Source: Streptomyces sp. Q6
Lineage (GTDB): Bacteria; Actinomycetota; Actinomycetes; Streptomycetales; Streptomycetaceae
Length of the DNA: 64,000 nt
Assembly: GCF_036967205.1 (NCBI RefSeq)
Contig: NZ_CP146022.1
Span: 6,696,001 to 6,760,000, forward strand
Direction of reading: 5' to 3'
This document shows positions 783 to 61,644 of the stretch, in pieces; the stretch's first letter is position 1; every line of letters begins with the position of its first letter. The translations under genes were made by a program, and so were the position numbers. Under the pieces are notes generated by a model. The model did not search any database, was not told the origin of the DNA, and saw only the letters and a program-made list of their open reading frames with translations.

Positions 783-873
783 CCCTGCAACCCTGGCGAA
801 CAACCGTACGGCGATTGAAACTGGCAACAACGCGGTCAAGGCCGCGTGCAAGCTCCTCAACGGGGCCTGTAAG

Positions 874-911
874 GCGGGGATGGTGCCGTGTCGGCGCAGC
901 ACCATCCCCGC
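874..911 (-). terminator. Hairpin terminator downstream of aidB
   Basis: A perfect 13-bp inverted repeat (874-886 with 899-911) encloses a 12-nt loop, 35 bp past the aidB stop codon. There is no clear U-tract, as is usual for actinobacterial hairpin terminators. Confidence 0.7.
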
Positions 912-945
912 GCGCAGCCCGTTCCGGAGCCGATGCTCACCGGGT

Positions 946-48678: not shown

Positions 48679-50010
48679 ATGCAGAGCCGCACGGCACTCG
48701 TCGAGGACCTGATGGAGCGCTTCCCGCACGTTCCGAAGGAAGCGGTCTTCAAGGAGGACCTGCTCCGGGGCGGCGTCGCGTTCGACCCCTCCGCGCTGAG
48801 CGACAACGAGGGCGGCGACGTCAAGCCGAAGTCGTACTTCATCTTCTCCTTCGACCACGGCACGCTCCCCGAGCTGGGCGAGGCCGCGCTGCGCCGCCCG
48901 CCGGAGGAGATCGTCCTCACCGGCGGCCCCTACGACCTGCGGCGCACCGTCGTCTCGGTCCGGGTGAACCCGTCGTCCCCGTACCGGGTCGCGGCCAACG
49001 AGGACGGGATGCTCGGCCTCTACCTCGACGGCAAGCGCATCTCCGACGTGGGCGTGCCGCCGATGCCGGAGTACTACCGGCACAAGCTCTCCAACGGGAA
49101 GTCGGTCATGGAGGTGGCCCCGACGATCCAGTGGGGCTACCTGATCTACCTGACCGCCTTCCGCGTCTGCCAGTACTTCGGCGCCAAGGAGGAGTGCCAG
49201 TACTGCGACATCAACCACAACTGGCGCCAGCACAAGGCGGCCGGGCGCCCGTACACGGGCGTGAAGGACGTCGACGAGGTCCTCGAAGCGCTGTCGATCA
49301 TCGACCAGTACGACACCGCGAAGGCGTCCACCGCGTACACGCTCACCGGCGGCGCGATCACCTCGAAGGTGCAGGGCCTGGACGAGGCCGACTTCTACGG
49401 GCGCTACGCCAAGGCCATCGAGGAGCACTTCCCGGGCCGCTGGATCGGCAAGGTCGTCGCCCAGGCGCTGCCCAAGGACGACGTCCAGCGCTTCAAGGAC
49501 TACGGCGTCCAGATCTACCACCCCAATTACGAGGTGTGGGACGAGTACCTGTTCAAGATGTACTGCCCCGGCAAGGAGCGCTACGTCGGCCGCGACGAGT
49601 GGCACAAGCGCATCCTCGACTCGACCGAGGTCTTCGGCGCGCGCAACGTGATCCCGAACTTCGTCGCGGGCGTGGAGATGGCCGAGCCGTTCGGCTTCAA
49701 GACGGTCGACGAGGCCATCGCGTCGACGACGGAGGGCCTGCGCTTCTTCATGTCGCAGGGCATCACCCCGCGCTTCACGACCTGGTGCCCCGAGCCGACG
49801 ACGCCCCTCGGCAAGGCGAACCCCGCCGGGGCGCCGCTGGAGTACCACATCCGTCTGCTGGACGCGTACCGCTCGACGATGGACGAGTTCGGTCTGTCGT
49901 CGCCGCCCGGATACGGGCCCGCCGGTGCCGGGCGGGCCGTCTTCTCGGTCAGCTCGTTCATGGACAGCCTGGCCCCGAACTCCGAGGCCGTGGAGACCCC
50001 GCAGGCCTGA
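48679..50010 (+). CDS. Radical-SAM-like protein with CX8CX2C cysteine spacing
   Basis: A 443-residue protein, ATG 48679 behind AAGGAG. Cys164, Cys173 and Cys176 (CQYFGAKEECQYCDINHNW) form a cluster site in a position typical of radical SAM barrels, but with eight residues instead of three between the first two. The motif is followed by GGAIT, compatible with the GGE-type SAM loop, and IYHPNYEVWD further on. It ends in a Ser/Pro-rich stretch. I take it as a radical SAM enzyme of an uncharacterised group; the substrate is unknown. No partner peptide or modification gene adjoins it. Confidence 0.75.
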   Translation: MQSRTALVEDLMERFPHVPKEAVFKEDLLRGGVAFDPSALSDNEGGDVKPKSYFIFSFDHGTLPELGEAALRRPPEEIVLTGGPYDLRRTVVSVRVNPSSPYRVAANEDGMLGLYLDGKRISDVGVPPMPEYYRHKLSNGKSVMEVAPTIQWGYLIYLTAFRVCQYFGAKEECQYCDINHNWRQHKAAGRPYTGVKDVDEVLEALSIIDQYDTAKASTAYTLTGGAITSKVQGLDEADFYGRYAKAIEEHFPGRWIGKVVAQALPKDDVQRFKDYGVQIYHPNYEVWDEYLFKMYCPGKERYVGRDEWHKRILDSTEVFGARNVIPNFVAGVEMAEPFGFKTVDEAIASTTEGLRFFMSQGITPRFTTWCPEPTTPLGKANPAGAPLEYHIRLLDAYRSTMDEFGLSSPPGYGPAGAGRAVFSVSSFMDSLAPNSEAVETPQA

Positions 50011-51701: not shown

Positions 51702-52880
51702 TCACTTCGGCCGCAGGCCGCGCACCAGTTCCCGCGGCAGCCCGTGCGTGTCGTGCAGATATCGCAGGTCGTCCTCGTCGAGCGGCCCCCGGAAGCGCGG
51801 CCGGTCGAGGACCTTGCGGCCGCGGTCGAGGAGCCGGTCGAAGCGCCGCTCCTCGTCGAGCAGCACGTGCCGCACCCGCCGCGGGTCCTCGTCCTGGCGG
51901 AAGCGGTCCAGGGTGTGCCGGATCAGTTCCTCGGGCAGGTCGCCGAGGCCGCGCGTCGGGTCGCCGCCGTCCTCGTGGCGCAGCACGGTGAGCAGCCGCC
52001 GGATCAGTCGGCGCAGCACGTATCCGCGTCCCGTGTTCGACGGCCGCACCCCGTCGCCGACGACCACGAACGACGAGCGCAGATGGTCCGAGACCAGCCG
52101 GAGCGACGGCTCGTCGAGCGACGGCCACAGGCCGGGCAGCAGCCGCCGCCACGGCTCGAAGACATCGCACTCGAACACCGACGAACGGCCCTGCAACCGC
52201 GACGAGAGGCGTTCGAGACCGAGGCCGGTGTCGACGTTGCGCTGCGGCAGCGGCACCAGCGAACCGTCGTCGAGGCGCCGGTAGCGCATCGTCACGTGGT
52301 TCCACATCTCGACCCAGCGCCCGTCGCGGCTCGGCGACGACTCGGGAGGTGTGTCGCCGGTCCACAGGAAGATCTCCGAGTCGGGACCGCACGGTCCGGT
52401 CGGCCCGTTGGACCACCAGTTGTCCTCGACGGTGAACTCCACCGGCACCCCGAGCCGCTGCCACAGCTCAAGAGAGGGCGTGTCGGGCCCGGTCCGGTCG
52501 TCACCGCCGAACACCGTCGAGTGCAACAGGCGCGGATCGACCCCGAATCCGTCGGTGAGCAGCTCGTACCCCCACTCCAGACTCCGCGGCCCCTCGTAGT
52601 CGCCGAGCGACCATGTGCCGAGCATCTCGAACACCGTCAGATGGGTCGGATCGCCGACCTCGTCCAGATCCGTGGTCCGCAGACACCGCTGTACGTTGAC
52701 CAGCCGCCGGCCCAGCGGATGCGGGCGCCCCTCCAGGTACGGGGTGAGCGGATGCATGCCGGACGTGGTGAACAGGACCGGATCGCCGGGCGGCGGCAGC
52801 AGGGTCGAGCCGGTGAGCGGGCGGTGCCCGCGCTCCTCGTAGAACTCGGTGAAGGTGCGGACGACGTCGTCGGTACGCAT
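51702..52880 (-). CDS. Alanyl-tRNA synthetase paralogue lacking editing and C-Ala domains
   Basis: A 392-residue protein, less than half of a normal AlaRS (about 880 aa). It covers the catalytic core and the tRNA-recognition helices: VRTFTEFYEERGHRPLTGSTLLPP, FTTSGMHPLTPYLEGRPHP, QRCLRTTDLDEVGDPTHLTVFEMLG (motif 2), GPTGPCGPDSEIFL, RNVDTGLGLERL and GRGYVLRRLIRRLL (motif 3). The editing domain with its HXXXH zinc site and the C-terminal oligomerisation part are absent. It may be a functional mini-synthetase, a resistance copy or an amino-acid-activating enzyme with another acceptor. The start ATG 52880 follows GAGGAG. Confidence 0.88.
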   Translation of the reverse strand: MRTDDVVRTFTEFYEERGHRPLTGSTLLPPPGDPVLFTTSGMHPLTPYLEGRPHPLGRRLVNVQRCLRTTDLDEVGDPTHLTVFEMLGTWSLGDYEGPRSLEWGYELLTDGFGVDPRLLHSTVFGGDDRTGPDTPSLELWQRLGVPVEFTVEDNWWSNGPTGPCGPDSEIFLWTGDTPPESSPSRDGRWVEMWNHVTMRYRRLDDGSLVPLPQRNVDTGLGLERLSSRLQGRSSVFECDVFEPWRRLLPGLWPSLDEPSLRLVSDHLRSSFVVVGDGVRPSNTGRGYVLRRLIRRLLTVLRHEDGGDPTRGLGDLPEELIRHTLDRFRQDEDPRRVRHVLLDEERRFDRLLDRGRKVLDRPRFRGPLDEDDLRYLHDTHGLPRELVRGLRPK

Positions 52881-53247: not shown

Positions 53248-53470
53248 GGGGACCGGCATGCAGGAGCCCGCCAACATTGCGGGGTTCCGGCAATGCGCGG
53301 GGGCGATCGCGACGTCAGGATGGAGCGCGGGGGAGCACTGAGGATGATCCCGGTGCCGGACACCGGCAGTCGGCGTATGCCGTCCGCGCGTCCGGCACCG
53401 GGACCGGTGTCGTGAGGGCTCCGTTGCCACCGCTTCGCACACGTCCCATCGCCGTCACCGAGGACTTCAC

Positions 53471-55519
53471 ATGGATGCCACCACCGTGGGCATCGGCGTG
53501 TCCGTCGCCGCTGTCCTGTTCGTCATAGCGCTGCTGTTCGCCTTCACCCGGCTGTTCCGCAAGGTGGAGCAGGGCAAGGCGCTGATCGTCTCCCGGATGC
53601 GCAGGGTCGATGTGACGTTCACCGGGCAGGTCGTCCTGCCCGTGCTGCACAAGGCCGAGGTCATGGACATCTCGGTGAAGGCCATCGAGATCACCCGGAC
53701 CGGCCGGGACGGGCTGATCTGCAAGGACAACATCCGCGCGGACATCCGCATCTCGTTCTTCGTGAAGGTCAACAAGACCGTCGACGACGTCATCAAGGTC
53801 GCCCAGGCCGTGGGTACCCAGCGCGCCAGCGACCAGAAGACGCTCCAGGAACTGTTCCACGCCAAGTTCTCCGAGGCGCTCAAGACCGTCGGCAAGCAGC
53901 TCGACTTCACCGATCTCTACACCAAGCGCGAGGAACTGCGGTACCGGATCATCGAGGTCATCGGCGTCGACCTGAGCGGCTACCACCTGGAGGACGCGGC
54001 GATCGACTACCTGGAGCAGACGCCGCTCTCCCAGCTCGACCCGCACAACGTCCTGGACGCCCAAGGCATCCGGAAGATCACCGAGTTGACGACGATCGAA
54101 CACGTGCGGACGAACGAGTTCCAGCGCACGGAGGAGAAGGAGATCACGCGGCAGAACGTCGACGCCCGCGAGACCATCCTGGAGCTGGAGCGCCGCCAGG
54201 CCGACGCCGAGATCAAGCAGCAGCGGGAGATCGACACCGTACGGGCCCGCGAGGCGGCCGAGACGGCGCGAGTGGTGGAGGAGGAGCGGCTGCGCTCGCA
54301 GGGCGCGTTCCTCACCACCGAGGAGAAGCTCGGCGTGCAGCGCGAGAACCAGCAGCGCGAGGTCGCCGTCGCGCAGAAGAACCGCGAGCGGGTCATCGCC
54401 GTCGAGAACGAGCGCATCGAGAAGGACCGCCTCCTGGAGGTCATCGCGCGGGAGCGGGAGACCCAGCTGACGAAGATCGCCGCCGACAAGGAGGTCGAGG
54501 GGCAGAAGCGGGAGATCGCCGAAGTCGTACGGGAGCGGGTCGCCGTCGACCGGACGGTCGCCGAGCAGGAGGAGTCCATCAAGAAGCTGCGCGCCGTCGA
54601 GGAGGCGGAGCGCGGGCGGCAGTCCGTCATCATCGCGGCGGAGGCCGAGGCGCAGCAGAAGCTGGTCAAGGACATCAAGGCCGCGGAGGCCGCCGAACAG
54701 GCGGCCACCCACCGTGCCGCCGAACAACTGACGCTGGCCGAGGCCGAGTTGAAGTCCGCCGACCTGCACGCGCAGGCCAAACTGAAGCTCGCCGCCGGTA
54801 TCCAGGCCGAGCAGGCCGCGCCGGGCCTCGCCGACGTCCAGGTCCGCGACAAGGAAGCCGACGTCATCGAGAAGTCGGGGCGCGCCGAGGCCGAGGCCAC
54901 CGAGGCGCGGCTGCGCGCCGAGGCGGAGGGCGCCCGCGCCAAGGCGCTCGCCGAGGCGACCGCGATCGGCGAGAAGCTCAAGGCGGAGGCCGAGGGCATC
55001 AACCAGAAGGCCCTCGCCATGGCGGCCCTGGACGACGCGTCGCGCGGCCACGAGGAGTACCGGCTGCGGCTCCAGGCCGAGAAGGAGATCCGGCTCGCCG
55101 GGCTCGACGCGCAGCGGCAGGTCGCCGAGGCGCAGGCCACCGTCCTCGCCACCGGCCTGGAGAACGCGGACATCGACATCGTCGGCGGTGACTCCGTCTT
55201 CTTCGACCGGCTCGTGAACTCCATCGCGTTCGGCAAGGGCCTCGACGGCTTCGTCGAGAACTCGCGGACCGCCCAGGCCCTCGCGGGCCCCTGGCTGGAC
55301 GGCACGGCCGTCTTCCCCGAGGACCTGACGAAGATCCTCGGCTCCGTGTCGACCGGCGACGTCCAGAACCTCACCGTCTCCGCGCTCCTGATGAAGCTCA
55401 TGAACGGCGGCGTCGGCGAACAGGCCGGACAGCTCCGAGAACTCCTGGACAAGGCGGGGCAGTTGGGTCTCGCCGACCTTCCGCTGGCGCGGCTGAACGG
55501 CTCCGCCGCGCACCACTGA
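53471..55519 (+). CDS. Flotillin-like SPFH-domain membrane protein
   Basis: A 682-residue protein with one N-terminal transmembrane helix (residues 7-26), an SPFH/Band 7 domain (about 30-200: VDVTFTGQVVLPVLHKAEVMDISVKAIEI, KDNIRADIRISFFVKV) and a long alanine/glutamate-rich coiled coil (about 215-560) that carries the repeats EAEATEARLRAEAEGARAKA. A globular tail follows (IDIVGGDSVFFDRLVNSIAFGKGLD). Size and layout match bacterial flotillins of the YqiK/FloT kind, which form membrane microdomains. It lies 129 bp upstream of a giant AAA+ ATPase in the same direction, and the pair seems functionally linked. Confidence 0.9.
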   Translation: MDATTVGIGVSVAAVLFVIALLFAFTRLFRKVEQGKALIVSRMRRVDVTFTGQVVLPVLHKAEVMDISVKAIEITRTGRDGLICKDNIRADIRISFFVKVNKTVDDVIKVAQAVGTQRASDQKTLQELFHAKFSEALKTVGKQLDFTDLYTKREELRYRIIEVIGVDLSGYHLEDAAIDYLEQTPLSQLDPHNVLDAQGIRKITELTTIEHVRTNEFQRTEEKEITRQNVDARETILELERRQADAEIKQQREIDTVRAREAAETARVVEEERLRSQGAFLTTEEKLGVQRENQQREVAVAQKNRERVIAVENERIEKDRLLEVIARERETQLTKIAADKEVEGQKREIAEVVRERVAVDRTVAEQEESIKKLRAVEEAERGRQSVIIAAEAEAQQKLVKDIKAAEAAEQAATHRAAEQLTLAEAELKSADLHAQAKLKLAAGIQAEQAAPGLADVQVRDKEADVIEKSGRAEAEATEARLRAEAEGARAKALAEATAIGEKLKAEAEGINQKALAMAALDDASRGHEEYRLRLQAEKEIRLAGLDAQRQVAEAQATVLATGLENADIDIVGGDSVFFDRLVNSIAFGKGLDGFVENSRTAQALAGPWLDGTAVFPEDLTKILGSVSTGDVQNLTVSALLMKLMNGGVGEQAGQLRELLDKAGQLGLADLPLARLNGSAAHH

Positions 55520-55648
55520 CCCGCCCGCGGGACCGGCCGGGGCCGCCGCACGGGGGTCGGCGACCCCGGCCGTACGGCATCAGCACGTTCCACCGGTACG
55601 CGAGACCGCCCGTAGGCGCGACCGCCCGTACGAGAGGGAAACCCGCCC

Positions 55649-58600
55649 ATGGACACGGGTCCGGACGCGAGCACCTACGACGTCCTGCGTGACCGGCTCG
55701 CCGGACAGGCCCGGCAACTCGCCGCGCGAGCGGAGGAGTTGAACGAGCGCCGGGTGGCCGCCTTCGGCGCCACCGGACTCGTCCTCGCCGACACGCGCCA
55801 CCTGCGCACCGCTCGGCCCGGCGTGGCCCGTGACGTCATCGCCGTCGGTGACGTCCTGCTGTCCGGGCGTACGACACCGCTCGGCGCCGACGACGGGACG
55901 ACCGTCGCGGACGTCTTCACCCTGCACGACCGCCGCACCCTGGAGGCGCTCCCCGACACGGCGGCGCCCGGCCTGCTCGACGACCCCGCGTTCGTCCGGG
56001 AGTTCGCGGCGCTGCACCGCTACTACCGCGCGGCCGCGCTGATCCGCCTCCGGCTCGTCGGCGGCACACTGCTCGCCGTGTTCCGCACCGGCGAGACGGC
56101 CGCCGACATCCGCGTCCTGCGCTGGACCCTCGGCGTGGACGGCCGGGCCGTCTTCCTCGACGCGCGCGGCGACCGCGACCACGTCCTGCCGCCCGCCCAC
56201 GACCTCACCTGGACCACGGCCACCCGCGACGACCACGTCCCCGGCCGCCACCCGCACATCGCCGTGCCCGGCGGCGAGGTCTACGTCGACACGCTCGGCG
56301 GCACCCTCACCCTCAAGACCGAGAACGACACCGAGACCGCCGAGGGCCGTTACAGCGAACCGGTCGACGAACCGCTCCAGTCGCTCGCCGACGCCGACGT
56401 CGCGCACGCCCGCGTCGGCCCGCTCATCCTGCTGCGCGTGCGCCCCTACAAGGAGAGCGCCGACCGGTACCTCGTCTTCGACACGCTCACCGGGCACACC
56501 GTGCGGCTCGACGGCATCGGGCAGGCCTGCCGCACGCTCCCCGAGGAGCAGGGCATCGTCTTCCCCGGCGGATACGTCCTGGCCACGGGGGAGTCCAAGG
56601 CGTTCGACGCCCTCGACACGACCGGCCTCGCCTACGAGCGGACCGTGCGCTCGCCGAGCGGCGAGGACGTCCTCTTCGTCTTCCACGGAACAGGCGCGTG
56701 CCGCACCCTGCTGCTCGCCTACAACGTCCTGCGCAAGGAGTTCGCCACCCCGATCGCCTGCGAGGGGTACGCGCTGTTCGACGACGGCTCCCTGCTCGTC
56801 CTGCGCGCCACCGACGGCGAGCCCGCCCGCGTGCACCCGCTCCAGACGTGGGACTCCCCGTACGTGTCCGACGCCCACGCCGCGGCCCGACCCGCCGGCG
56901 CGGGGCCACTGGCCCGTGTCGGCAACGCCGACCTGGTGGGCGGCATCTCCGACTGCCTCGCCGTGGCCCGCACCGTCACCGGCACGGCCGGGACGCCGAC
57001 GACCGCCGCCTACCAGGAACTGGTCGCGCGCTGCGTCCGCGCCGCCGACCGTCACCACTGGCTCGGCGACCCCGAACTCGGCGACCTGCGCGGCCCATTG
57101 GACGCCGTACGCGCCACGGCCGAGCAGGTGCTCACCGAGTTCGAGACGGTGCGCGGCCTGACCCGGCAGGCGGCCGAAGCGGTCGCCGACGCGGCCGCCC
57201 GCAGCGCGGGCCTCGTCCGGCGCATCCGCGGCGAGGTGCCCCGCACCGCCCCCGAATGGGTCGAGCGGATCACCGAACTCCGCCGCGCGCAGGGCCGGTT
57301 GTTGTCCCTCAAGGAACTCCGCCACGCCGACACCGAGCAGATCGACACCCTCGCCACCGGCCTCGCGGCCGACATCGACGCGGCCGGGCAGCGCGCCGTC
57401 GCGTTCCTCGCGCGGCCCGACGCCTTCGCCGCCCAGCACCGGCACCTCGACGGACTGGCCGAGCTCGCCGACACGCTCGCGACCGTCGCCGAGTTCACCG
57501 AGCCGTACCGTGAACTCCAGGCGCTCGGCGACCAGTTGCGCACGGCCGCGGACGTCGTCGCCGGGCTGGAGGTCGCCGACGCGACGGTCCGCGCGACCGT
57601 CCTGGAACACCTCGCCGAGGCCCTGGCCGCCGTCAACCGGGCCCGCGCCACCCTCGACGCGCGCCGCCGCGAACTCGCCGAGCGAGAGGGCGCGCCGAGT
57701 TCGCCGCCGAGTTCGCCCTGCTCGGGCAGGCCGTCACCGGCGCCCTCGCCGCGGCCGACACCCCGCACGCCTGCGACGACCAGCTGGCCCGGCTCCTGCT
57801 GCGGCTGGAGGAACTCCAGGGCAGGTTCGCCGAGTCCGACGCCTTCCTCGACGACCTCGACACCCGCCGCACCGAGATCCACGAGGCCTTCGCCGCCCGC
57901 AAGCAGGCCCTGACCGACGAACGGGCCCGCCGCACCGACCGCCTCGCCCACTCCGCCGGACGCGTCCTCGCCTCGATCGCCCGCCGCGCCGCGACCCTCG
58001 CCTCCGACGAGGACATCCACACCTACTTCGCCTCCGACCCGCTGGTCGCCAAGGTCGCCCGCACCATCGCCGACCTGCGCGACCTCGGCGACCAGGTGCG
58101 GGCGGACGAACTCGCCGGCCGCGTCGACGCCGCCCGCAGGGAAGCCGCCCGCACCCTGCGCGACCGCACCGACCTGTACGCGGACGGCGGCGACACCCTG
58201 CGCCTGGGCCGCCACCGCTTCGCCGTCAACACCCAGCCGCTCGACCTGACCCTCGTCCCGCACGGCGACGGCATGGCCTTCGCGCTCACCGGCACCGACT
58301 ACCGCGCCCCCGTCACCGATCCCGACTTCGCCGCCACCCGCCCCCACTGGGACCAGCACCTCGCCTCCGAGAACCCCGCCGTCTACCGCGCCGAACACCT
58401 CGCCGCCCGGCTCCTCGCCGACCACGGCGCCGACGCGCTGCTTGCCGCCGACGACCTGCCGCGACGCGTCCGGGCCGCCGCCGAGGACGCGTACGACGAG
58501 GGCTACGAGCGCGGTGTGCACGACCACGACACCACCCTGATCCTCACCGCCCTGCTGCGCCTGCACTCCAGCGCCGGCCTGCTGCGCCACACCCCGCGGG

Positions 58601-60441
58601 CCCGCGCCGCCGCCCAGCTCTTCTGGGCGCACCAAGTACCCGACGAAGAGCGGCGGTTGCTGATCCGTCGGGCCGCCTCGCTGGCCCGCGCCCGCGACAC
58701 CTTCGGCCTCGCCCCCGCCCTCGACGACTTCCGCGCGGAACTCGCCGCGCGCATGGACGGCGACCCGGACGCCGCCGCGTACCTCGTCGACGAGCTGAGC
58801 GGCGCCCCCACCGGCTTCGTCGTGGCGTCCCGGACCCGCGAGTTCCTCGACAAGTTCCGCCGCACGGTGGACGGTCCGGCCTACGAGGACGACATCGCGG
58901 CGGTGCCCGACCTCACCGCCCGCCGCCAGCTGGTGGAGGCATGGCTGTCGGCGTACGCCACGGCCGCCGGTGAGCGCCTCGCCGACCTGCCCGAGGCCGT
59001 GGCCGTGGAACTCTGCCCGGACCTGGAGCGGTACGAGAACACCGCCGACCTCACCGCCACCGTCGAGGGCCTGCTCGGCACCCACCCGCGGATCGCGGGC
59101 CGCCGCCTCACCTTCCGGATCGACGAACTGCTCGCCCGCACAGCGGAGTTCCGGACGCGCACCGTGCCCGGGTTCCGCGCGTACCAGCGGCTGCGCACCC
59201 GCCTCGCCACCGCCGAACGCGCCCGGCTGCGCCTCGACGACCACCGCCCCCGCGTCCTGTCGACGTTCGTACGCAGCCGTCTCGTCGACGAGGTGTACCT
59301 GCCGCTCATCGGCGACAGCCTCAGCAAGCAACTCGGCACGGCCGGCGGCCTGTTGCTGCTCATCTCGCCGCCGGGCTACGGCAAGACGACCCTCATGGAG
59401 TACGTCGCCGACCGGCTCGGCATGATCCTCGTCAAGGTCGACGGGCCGGCCCTCGGCCACACCGTCACCTCCCTCGACCCCGCCGACGCTCCGCACGCGA
59501 CCGCCCGGCAGGAGATCGACAAGGTCAACTTCGCGCTGGAGACGGGCAACAACGTCCTCCTGTACCTCGACGACATCCAGCACACCTCGCCCGAACTCCT
59601 CCAGAAGTTCATCGCGCTGTGCGACGCGCAGCGCCGCATGGACGGCGTGTGGAACGGCACCCCGCGCACGTACGACCTGCGCGGCAAGCGGTTCGCCGTC
59701 TGCATGGCGGGCAACCCGTACACCGAGTCAGGAGCCCGCTTCCGCGTCCCCGACATGCTCGCCAACCGCGCCGACGTATGGAACCTCGGCGACGTCCTCA
59801 CCGGCCGGGCGGACGCCTTCGCCGCGTCCTTCGTGGAGAACGCGCTCACCGCGAACCCTCATCTCGCGCCGCTCGCCGCCCGCGAGCGCGCCGACCTCGA
59901 CCTGCTGCTCCGGATCGCCGAGGGCGATCCCGCCGCACGCGCCGACCACCTCGTCCACCCGTACGCGCCCGCCGAACGCGACCGCGTCGTCACCGTCCTG
60001 CGCCACCTCGTCGCGGCCCGCGCCACGGTCCTCGCGGTCAACGCGGCCTACATCGCGTCCGCCGCCCAGGACCCCGCGACCCGTACCGAGCCGCCCTTTC
60101 GGCTCCAGGGCTCCTACCGCGACATGAACAAGATCGCCGCCCGGATCGACCCGGCCATGAACGACGACGAGCTGGCCGCTCTCATCGACGACCACTACAC
60201 GAGCGAGGCCCACACTCTCACCACCGGCGCCGAGGCCAGTCTTCTCAAACTCGCCGAGCTGCGCGGCCGGTTGACGGACCGTCAAGCCGCGCGCTGGGCC
60301 GAGGTGAAGGCCGGCCACGTCCGCGCCCGTACCCTCGGCGGCCCCGCCGACGACCCGGGCGTCCGGGCCGTCGCCGCCCTCGGACTGCTCGCCGACCGCC
60401 TGGCGGCCGTGGAGGCCGCGATCACCGGCCGAGACCGCTGA
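55649..60441 (+). pseudogene. Giant AAA+ 'DNA repair ATPase' (DUF3686-like) with one-base frameshift
   Basis: Codons from ATG 55649 to about 57688 are in one frame and from 57691 to 60441 in another; adding one base in the GGG at 57688-57690 yields a continuous 1597-residue protein. The N-terminal half (residues 1-500) is beta-rich and of DUF3686 type as I recall it, followed by coiled-coil segments (about 500-760). The C-terminal half carries the AAA+ core with Walker A PPGYGKTT (about 1241-1248), Walker B LLYLDDIQH (Asp1308-1309) and FAVCMAGNPYTESGARFRVPDML. The family is annotated as DNA-repair ATPase without experimental support I can recall. Placement behind the flotillin gene suggests a membrane-associated remodelling machine. 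Frameshift may be a sequence error. Confidence 0.82.
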
Positions 60442-60577
60442 GCCCCGGTCCTTGAGCGCGAACCAGTGGCACCGGCCACCCCTCGCCTCCTGGCCGCCGC
60501 GCGCACCCCACCGGCCCGAACCGCCGCCACGTGCGCTAAGAATGCGTCAGCGGGGCATCGGGACGGCAGGGGCGGCC

Positions 60578-61644
60578 ATGGCGACGACGGCACAGGACAT
60601 ACCCGACGAGTACCTGGCGGGCTATGCCGACATCGTCGGCCGCGCGGCGGCGACCGGCCGCCGGCTGACGCGCGACGAACTGGAGTCGCGCCGCGCGCTG
60701 GGGAGCGGGCCGCCGAGGCCGGACTCGCCCTGCGCGCGCTGATCGCCGCCCACCTCACGACGGCGTCCCACTCGCTCGAACTCGGCGGCTCCACCACCAC
60801 CGAAGCCGTCCTCGCGGCGAGCGCGCAGGCCGTCGACGCGCTCATCGAGGGGTACGAGCGGGCCCAGCGCCACACGATGCGTCAGGAGGAGGCGGCCCGC
60901 CGCGAGTTCATCGACGACCTTCTCTACGGCCGCAGCGACCTCGGCCAACTCGCCGAGCGCGCCGAGCGGTTCGGGCTCCGCCTCTCCGCCGCGCACGCGG
61001 TCGCGGTGGCCGAGGGTGAGTCCGCGCACGGCGAGGGCGACCCGGTGCTCCGCTCGGTCGAGCGCTCCCTCATCGCCCGCTTCGGCGACCGCAGCATCCT
61101 GCTGACCACCAAGGACGGGCGCCTTGTCTGTGTCGCGCCCGGCGACCAGGACGAGATCCTCGCCTTCTTCGCCAAGCAGGCCTACGTCGCCACCGACGGC
61201 GGGAAGGTCGCGATCGGCCGCCCGCACTCGGGTCCGGGCGGCGTCGTGCAGTCCTACGAGGAGGCACTGAGCGCCCTCGACCTCGCCGCCCGCCTCGACC
61301 TCGACGAACCCGTCCTGCGCTCGGCCGACCTGCTCGTCTATCCGGTCCTCACCCGGGACCGGCAGGCCATGGCCGAGCTGGTCGGCAGCGTCCTCGGCCC
61401 GCTGCGGCACGCGCGCGGCGGCGCGCAGCCCCTGCTCGACACCCTCGCCGCCTACTTCGACGCGGGCTGTGTCGCCGCCGAGGCGGCCCGTCGCCTGTCG
61501 CTGAGCGTGCGCGCGTTCACGTACCGGCTGGCCCGCATCCACCAGCTGACCGGCGCCGATCCGGCGGACCCCGTCCACCGGTACGCGCTCCAGACCGCGG
61601 TGATCGGCGCCCGGCTCCTCGACTGGCCGGCCCGTCAGCTCTGA
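60578..61644 (+). pseudogene. PucR/CdaR-type helix-turn-helix regulator with one-base frameshift
   Basis: ATG 60578 begins MATTAQDIPDEYLAGYADIV in one frame; from about 60704 the remainder (ERAAEAGLALRALIAAHLTTASHSLEL onward) is in another. A missing G in the run at 60700-60703 restores a 355-residue protein. A GGDEF-like central part (about 165-270) precedes the C-terminal HTH_30 motif LLDTLAAYFDAGCVAAEAARRLSLSVRAFTYRLARI. It follows the AAA+ ATPase by 136 bp, with a TAAGAAT box at 60537-60543, so it may have its own promoter and still regulate the flotillin/ATPase pair. Confidence 0.85.

Follow-up and report, generated by a model that had tools for sequence, protein, structure and literature searches.

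A stretch of 64,000 nucleotides from Streptomyces sp. Q6 (contig NZ_CP146022.1, positions 6,696,001 to 6,760,000; genome size 8.95 Mb), called the window throughout, carries genes for a flotillin-like SPFH protein, a giant DUF3686–AAA+ ATPase and a PucR-family regulator. We have found that the SPFH and ATPase genes are neighbours in every locus where this could be tested, that in Streptomyces they lie behind a dyad, TGCCGGnnnCCGGCA, which is often doubled at a spacing of 75–77 bp, and that in relatives this dyad is shared with the regulator gene and a Na+/H+ antiporter gene, which suggests a role in membrane or ion stress. Our reading, to which we give a probability of about 0.55, is that this is the form which the YqiJ–SPFH–AAA+ module takes in Streptomyces, a PucR-controlled envelope and ion-homeostasis regulon with an SPFH-anchored AAA+ remodelling machine.

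The SPFH and ATPase genes form a conserved pair

Comparison was made across 108 fetched loci (L numbers; G numbers denote genomes), comprising 20 loci from genomes of the same phylum, 8 of 12 matches in a plasmid collection and 80 genome-scan loci, the best 80 of at least 536 relatives. The SPFH neighbour was testable in 104, the other four (L074, L090, L091 and L136) having too little upstream DNA. An SPFH gene lies upstream of the ATPase gene on the same strand in all 104, at no more than 1000 bp in 103 and at 1959 bp in L118, an order far above chance. Some of the gaps are negative owing to over-extended starts of open reading frames (ORFs), and in L084 an SPFH piece overlaps an over-extended ATPase ORF. 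An earlier sequence-only reading of the window had staked its proposal of a possible uncharacterised membrane-associated system partly on the two genes lying side by side in the majority of genomes that have them; the survey favours such a system.

That reading had also described a 682-aa (amino acid) SPFH protein with a long coiled coil directly before the ATPase gene, and this holds. The ORF stops 129 bp before the DUF3686 gene, and an N-terminal hydrophobic segment and a long coiled coil can be read from its sequence. Band_7 is matched in the genome search, weakly but above the cut-off, at 42.4 bits (window 53561–53992); hmmscan of the same 682-aa protein did not report it. No solved structure is related to the protein by sequence at an E-value of 1.

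A YqiJ-like gene is present in 91 of the 101 loci with the 3.2 kb of upstream sequence that this count required. All ten loci without it are from Streptomyces, like the window, and a YqiJ hidden Markov model (HMM) found nothing upstream of SPFH in any of them. The same was true of the 1.3 kb upstream of the window SPFH gene, with three of three positive controls matching, and of the whole window genome, in a search that matches five of five others. YqiJ-like proteins of different phyla are homologous to one another; Pfam gave no matches for three of them and, for five others, one sub-cut-off match to NfeD and one to YqiJ_OB. Counting matches above 45 bits as neighbours, PspA accompanies the pair in 18 of the 104 loci, YjfI in 12 and PucR in 32. 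PucR is a partner only in the Streptomyces loci among those fetched, and neither YjfI nor PspA was found as a neighbour there. Gene order is stable across phyla, with PspA-type envelope-stress genes beside the module in some loci. DUF3686 has a scattered distribution (8 of 296 Actinobacteriota genomes, 13 of 41 relatives), which extends to plasmids (12 records).

A promoter dyad shared with the regulator and an antiporter

The dyad emerged when the DNA separating PucR from the operon was scanned in 28 Streptomyces loci, 19 of which contain it exactly; no report of it was found in the literature searched. Allowing at most one mismatch in the 1.5 kb upstream of SPFH, it is present in 41 of the 42 Streptomyces loci that could be tested (L045, L059 and L065 being untestable there) and in none of 58 loci from other genera. 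The single miss, L066, is also the only one among the loci held out of motif finding (13/14). Pairs 74–77 bp apart occur in 24 of the 42 Streptomyces loci, 7 of the 14 held out and none of the 58; the window retains both dyads, 76 bp apart. Resampled sequences gave a single dyad in 21 of 840 cases and a pair in 0 of 840. Widening the search to 2.5 kb added one other-genus locus, L061, with a single one-mismatch site.

Counted within 250 bp upstream of the gene start, the dyad precedes 26 of 30 PucR orthologues and 27 of 32 YqiJ genes, 5 of 44 SPFH genes and 0 of 47 ATPase genes. In the NHE_c4 family of Na+/H+ antiporters it lies upstream of all eight genes, at 126–136 bp (eight distinct genes, the loci L044/L218 and L042/L221 overlapping). 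The controls gave 12 of 426 for other genes of the same loci and 4 of 494 for the genes of 32 random stretches. All 18 genomes that have the operon, and 5 of the 14 that lack it, contain a PucR orthologue, and in three of the operon-less genomes (G014, G022 and G024) the PucR gene also has the dyad; in G200 it appears only at ~300 bp or more.

The window copy and its frame breaks

Table 1 Features of the window locus (window coordinates)
Feature	Coordinates	Strand	Basis
Operator-like dyad, upstream copy, one mismatch to TGCCGGnnnCCGGCA	53278..53292	.	
Operator-like dyad, downstream copy, exact, 117 bp before SPFH start	53354..53368	.	
SPFH/Band_7 protein (YqiK/flotillin-like), 682 aa	53471..55519	+	ORF and domain search
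ATPase N-terminal half: predicted beta-propeller, then helical region with DUF7902	55649..57694	+	models/fold searches
Predicted beta-propeller	~55781–56860	+	within ATPase N-terminal half
Helical region with DUF7902	~56870–57691	+	within ATPase N-terminal half
Frame break within ATPase gene; frame intact in most relatives	57685..57700	+	ORF/relative comparison
ATPase C-terminal half: helical part and one AAA+ domain of MoxR-like fold	57694..60441	+	models/fold searches
ATPase P-loop; Walker-B-like DDIQ	~59365–59391; from 59569	+	
PucR-family regulator (GGDEF_2 + HTH_30); likely start ATG 60578	60578..61644	+	domain search, relatives

The single 1597-aa AAA+ ORF of the sequence-only reading was not borne out (Table 1). 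DUF3686 (PF12458) is matched at 579.5 bits, with the AAA P-loop next and then the PucR-type gene, but the frame from 55649 stops at 57913 after 754 aa and the conserved AAA+ part goes on in another frame, the switch lying at ~57694. The regulator proposed to follow the ATPase is there, with GGDEF_2 (74.3 bits) and HTH_30 (57.9 bits) both above cut-off as expected of the PucR family, but the N-terminus of the listed ORF (60466–61644) is non-homologous, the likely start lies in another frame, and the gene is frame-broken near 60.70–60.72 kb. No dyad of its own was found upstream. Since it starts 136 bp after the ATPase stop, it is possibly co-transcribed with the ATPase gene and read from the same dyad-bearing promoter.

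A programmed frameshift as the source of the broken ATPase was rejected, because the ATPase ORF exceeds 1400 aa in 107 of the 108 fetched loci; in one of these, L015, the ATPase is still split near the C-terminus, with a second short ATPase ORF. The ATPase is broken in L042 and the SPFH gene is in two pieces in L044, L045 and L084, so the window is not alone in having broken copies.

The locus might be a decaying relic, now functionless in this strain, which we regard as unlikely but to be taken seriously. The two frame breaks fall within ~3 kb of one another, the absence of YqiJ and an antiporter orthologue present only as fragments lean towards decay, and another Streptomyces genome, which has two copies of the module (L042; G167:C1:2613053-2613883), also holds one with broken ATPase and PucR genes. 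Against this, the 915 codons past the ATPase break are open and conserved with the AAA+ motifs intact, and both dyads are retained. YqiJ loss alone is not decay, given the ten other Streptomyces loci without it. A detector that recovers 52 of 79 simulated breaks called breaks of the same type 8 times in 320 kb of the window assembly and 3 times in 320 kb of the relative G007, small numbers that lean towards residual sequencing errors. A weaker candidate break lies at window ~6449 (+).

How far the dyad evidence carries

The dyad may also be bound by a regulator other than PucR, PucR being merely another of its targets, and we hold this to be improbable. It would account for dyads before operons without PucR in the fetched flank (L018, L020, L023, L045, L100, L105 and L134) and for PucR genes without the dyad: when up to two mismatches are allowed, 21 of 27 PucR matches are preceded by a site and six are not (G002, G021, both copies in G013, G285 and the window). 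However, the genomes from which L018, L020, L023 and L045 come do have a PucR orthologue, and the dyad precedes a high proportion of PucR orthologues and is also present where PucR lies away from the operon (L216, L221, L240 and L241).

Several points weigh against a PucR-controlled envelope and ion-homeostasis regulon. The six PucR matches just listed are among them, and the binding of PucR to the dyad is something that we infer. The compared loci share descent, so that the dyad and locus counts are not independent. Within 250 bp the dyad is found upstream of 0 of 12 TrkA_c5 genes, 0 of 8 other antiporters, 0 of 5 NhaA and 0 of 5 ArsB genes; these four were therefore rejected as dyad targets, and not all ion-transport neighbours belong. 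The choice of start matters here, since taking longest-ORF starts puts sites 0–80 bp from a TrkA-like ORF (three loci) and upstream of ArsB (two loci). Exact dyads occur in all 32 genomes searched, 7–22 per genome in the 18 with the operon and 2–21 in the 14 without. The window genome has six other exact sites, none at recognisable stress genes, lying in or beside ribosomal-protein, gnd-like and other genes (genes named by eye). Because the per-genome counts overlap and these six sites lie where they do, a genome-wide regulon drawn from single dyads was rejected. In the window itself the ATPase and PucR genes are frame-broken, YqiJ is absent and the antiporter orthologue is fragmentary, and no experiment on the ATPase was found in the literature searched.

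Relation to known systems

The idea of a system is not new, as Ravi et al. 2024 (PMC11237479) already describe operons of YqiJ/YuaF, band-7/flotillin and AAA+ proteins, the last with coiled coil and beta-propeller, accompanied by PspA–CesT/Tir or in an abbreviated PspA-free form. The present module has the same three protein types. The window SPFH protein has the putative transmembrane segment, band-7 domain and coiled coil of the module, and the window ATPase has an AAA+ core fold of MoxR type; the propeller/coiled-coil and AAA+ architecture, taken from models and fold searches, is split by the frame break. The window differs in lacking the YqiJ/YuaF-like membrane protein, and the Streptomyces branch differs in having PucR, a dedicated dyad and the antiporter link; the main text of Ravi et al. 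makes no mention of Streptomyces, PucR or an antiporter. The CesT/Tir–PspA dyad, a part of the full module only, was not among the flanking window genes scanned (AlaRS-like, asparaginase, AsnC, alpha/beta hydrolase, RsgA and one without family), PspA elsewhere in the genome not having been searched for. The 'uncharacterised' of the sequence-only reading stands as regards experiments on the ATPase, but the module had been described computationally.

The bacABCDEF operon of Pseudomonas aeruginosa (PMC10948618), for which a sigma-54 promoter has been proposed and whose phenotype concerns biofilm and rhamnolipid, starts with YjfI (DUF2170) and PspA. So do the Pseudomonas loci L093, L099, L114 and L115, in which YqiJ, SPFH and ATPase follow, and from this gene order bacC–F probably include the flotillin–AAA+ module, making the bac operon a PspA-type relative; the word ATPase is never used in the main text of that paper. 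Where the bac operon has YjfI/PspA and its proposed sigma-54 promoter, the Streptomyces loci have PucR dyads instead. The YqiJ–YqiK operon of Escherichia coli (PMC2636767) likewise joins an SPFH protein to an NfeD/OB-fold membrane partner; ATPases are not mentioned in its main text, whereas our loci were selected through their ATPase gene, which lies after SPFH. The MoxR-type AAA+ proteins CbbQ/NorQ (PDB 6l1q, 9qh9) differ from the present ATPase, in which one AAA+ domain sits on a propeller/coiled-coil N-terminus. Literature searches on DUF3686, on 'DNA repair ATPase' with SPFH, and on the PucR family with flotillin found nothing. Judged by titles and abstract beginnings, nothing on the antiporter link was found for PucR, Streptomyces and antiporters, nor anything on the module among the papers listed for flotillin/SPFH in Streptomyces.

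The sequence-only reading had offered stress, envelope or defence functions. Of these, a part in the envelope or in stress agrees with what has been described computationally (PMC11237479) and with the dyad common to the Na+/H+ antiporter in Streptomyces; overall, both the observation and the interpretation of that reading are partly supported. It is very unlikely that the module defends against phage by means of a membrane-anchored NTPase: the patchy distribution and the plasmid copies, one with a DNA methyltransferase gene ~9 kb upstream, would suit it, but none of the four proteins has a PADLOC match at E 0.001, gene order holds steady from phylum to phylum and in some of them includes PspA-type envelope-stress genes, and the promoter dyad is shared with a Na+/H+ antiporter. 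Defence was accordingly rejected, as was a phage origin, there being no match in the phage collection. Equally improbable is action on DNA in repair or recombination, for which the Pfam and NCBI family name 'DNA repair ATPase', RuvB as the first Foldseek row, a similarity to the RuvB equivalog far below cut-off (NF000868, 20.8 bits against 282), a LexA-family regulator gene beside a Hymenobacter operon and a UvrD-helicase-domain gene ~11 kb upstream on pQBR103 could be cited.

Other observations

On pQBR103, a Pseudomonas plasmid (L050, 3983–17187), the module lies behind YjfI, PspA, rhomboid, DUF2491, DUF350, DUF1190 and glutathionylspermidine-synthase-like genes, a run which joins two published PspA contexts. 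In the Hymenobacter plasmid (L052, 6577–16884) the LexA-family regulator gene is divergent to a run of Tir-chaperone, PspA, DUF1449, SPFH-like and ATPase genes. Cation/proton antiporter, TrkA-N/TrkA-C and CBS genes surround the module in six Streptomyces loci (L014, L017, L022, L056, L092 and L101). Beside the window operon, 51702–52880 (−) encodes a 392-aa alanyl-tRNA-synthetase-like protein matching the N-terminal part of the family models only, a truncated paralogue. The 443-aa ORF at 48679–50010 (+) has no Pfam match at 0.001 and a cysteine-rich CQYC stretch that resembles a radical-SAM motif. The Streptomyces sRNA Scr6106 (Rfam) is found at 830–914 (+) and 991–1083 (−), near a tRNA-Arg.

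Proposed role

In the regulon that we favour, the SPFH protein would oligomerise under the membrane and anchor or recruit the giant ATPase through contact with it. The propeller and coiled coil of the latter may serve for client recognition, and its single MoxR-like AAA+ domain would form a ring that spends ATP, during envelope or ion stress, on remodelling or assembling membrane protein complexes. In Streptomyces the genes would be transcribed as an operon under the PucR-family regulator, acting through the TGCCGGnnnCCGGCA dyads, and as PucR would also govern its own gene and the Na+/H+ antiporter, the machine would be tied to cation and pH homeostasis. In the window strain YqiJ is missing, PucR has come to stand at the operon end, and two genes are frame-broken, by either sequencing error or early decay. 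Of this picture, computation establishes the gene order and its conservation, the domains, and where the conserved dyads lie; transcription as an operon, PucR binding, contact between SPFH and ATPase, remodelling and the stress role are inferred. A more specific version can be put forward only tentatively: a PucR-type regulon with (paired) TTGCCGGnnnCCGGCAA operators as its mark might co-activate the antiporter and the SPFH-anchored, propeller-bearing MoxR-like AAA+ machine, whose task would be to remodel membrane transport complexes in response to ion stress, in a PspA-free wiring of the flotillin–AAA+ module.

The flotillin–AAA+ module is spread over many phyla and yet goes by the name of a DNA repair ATPase. 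The dyad and antiporter evidence points to membrane and ion homeostasis rather than to DNA repair or defence, and the dyad, the candidate regulator and the antiporter that shares the dyad provide handles on the inducing signal and the clients in a tractable genus.
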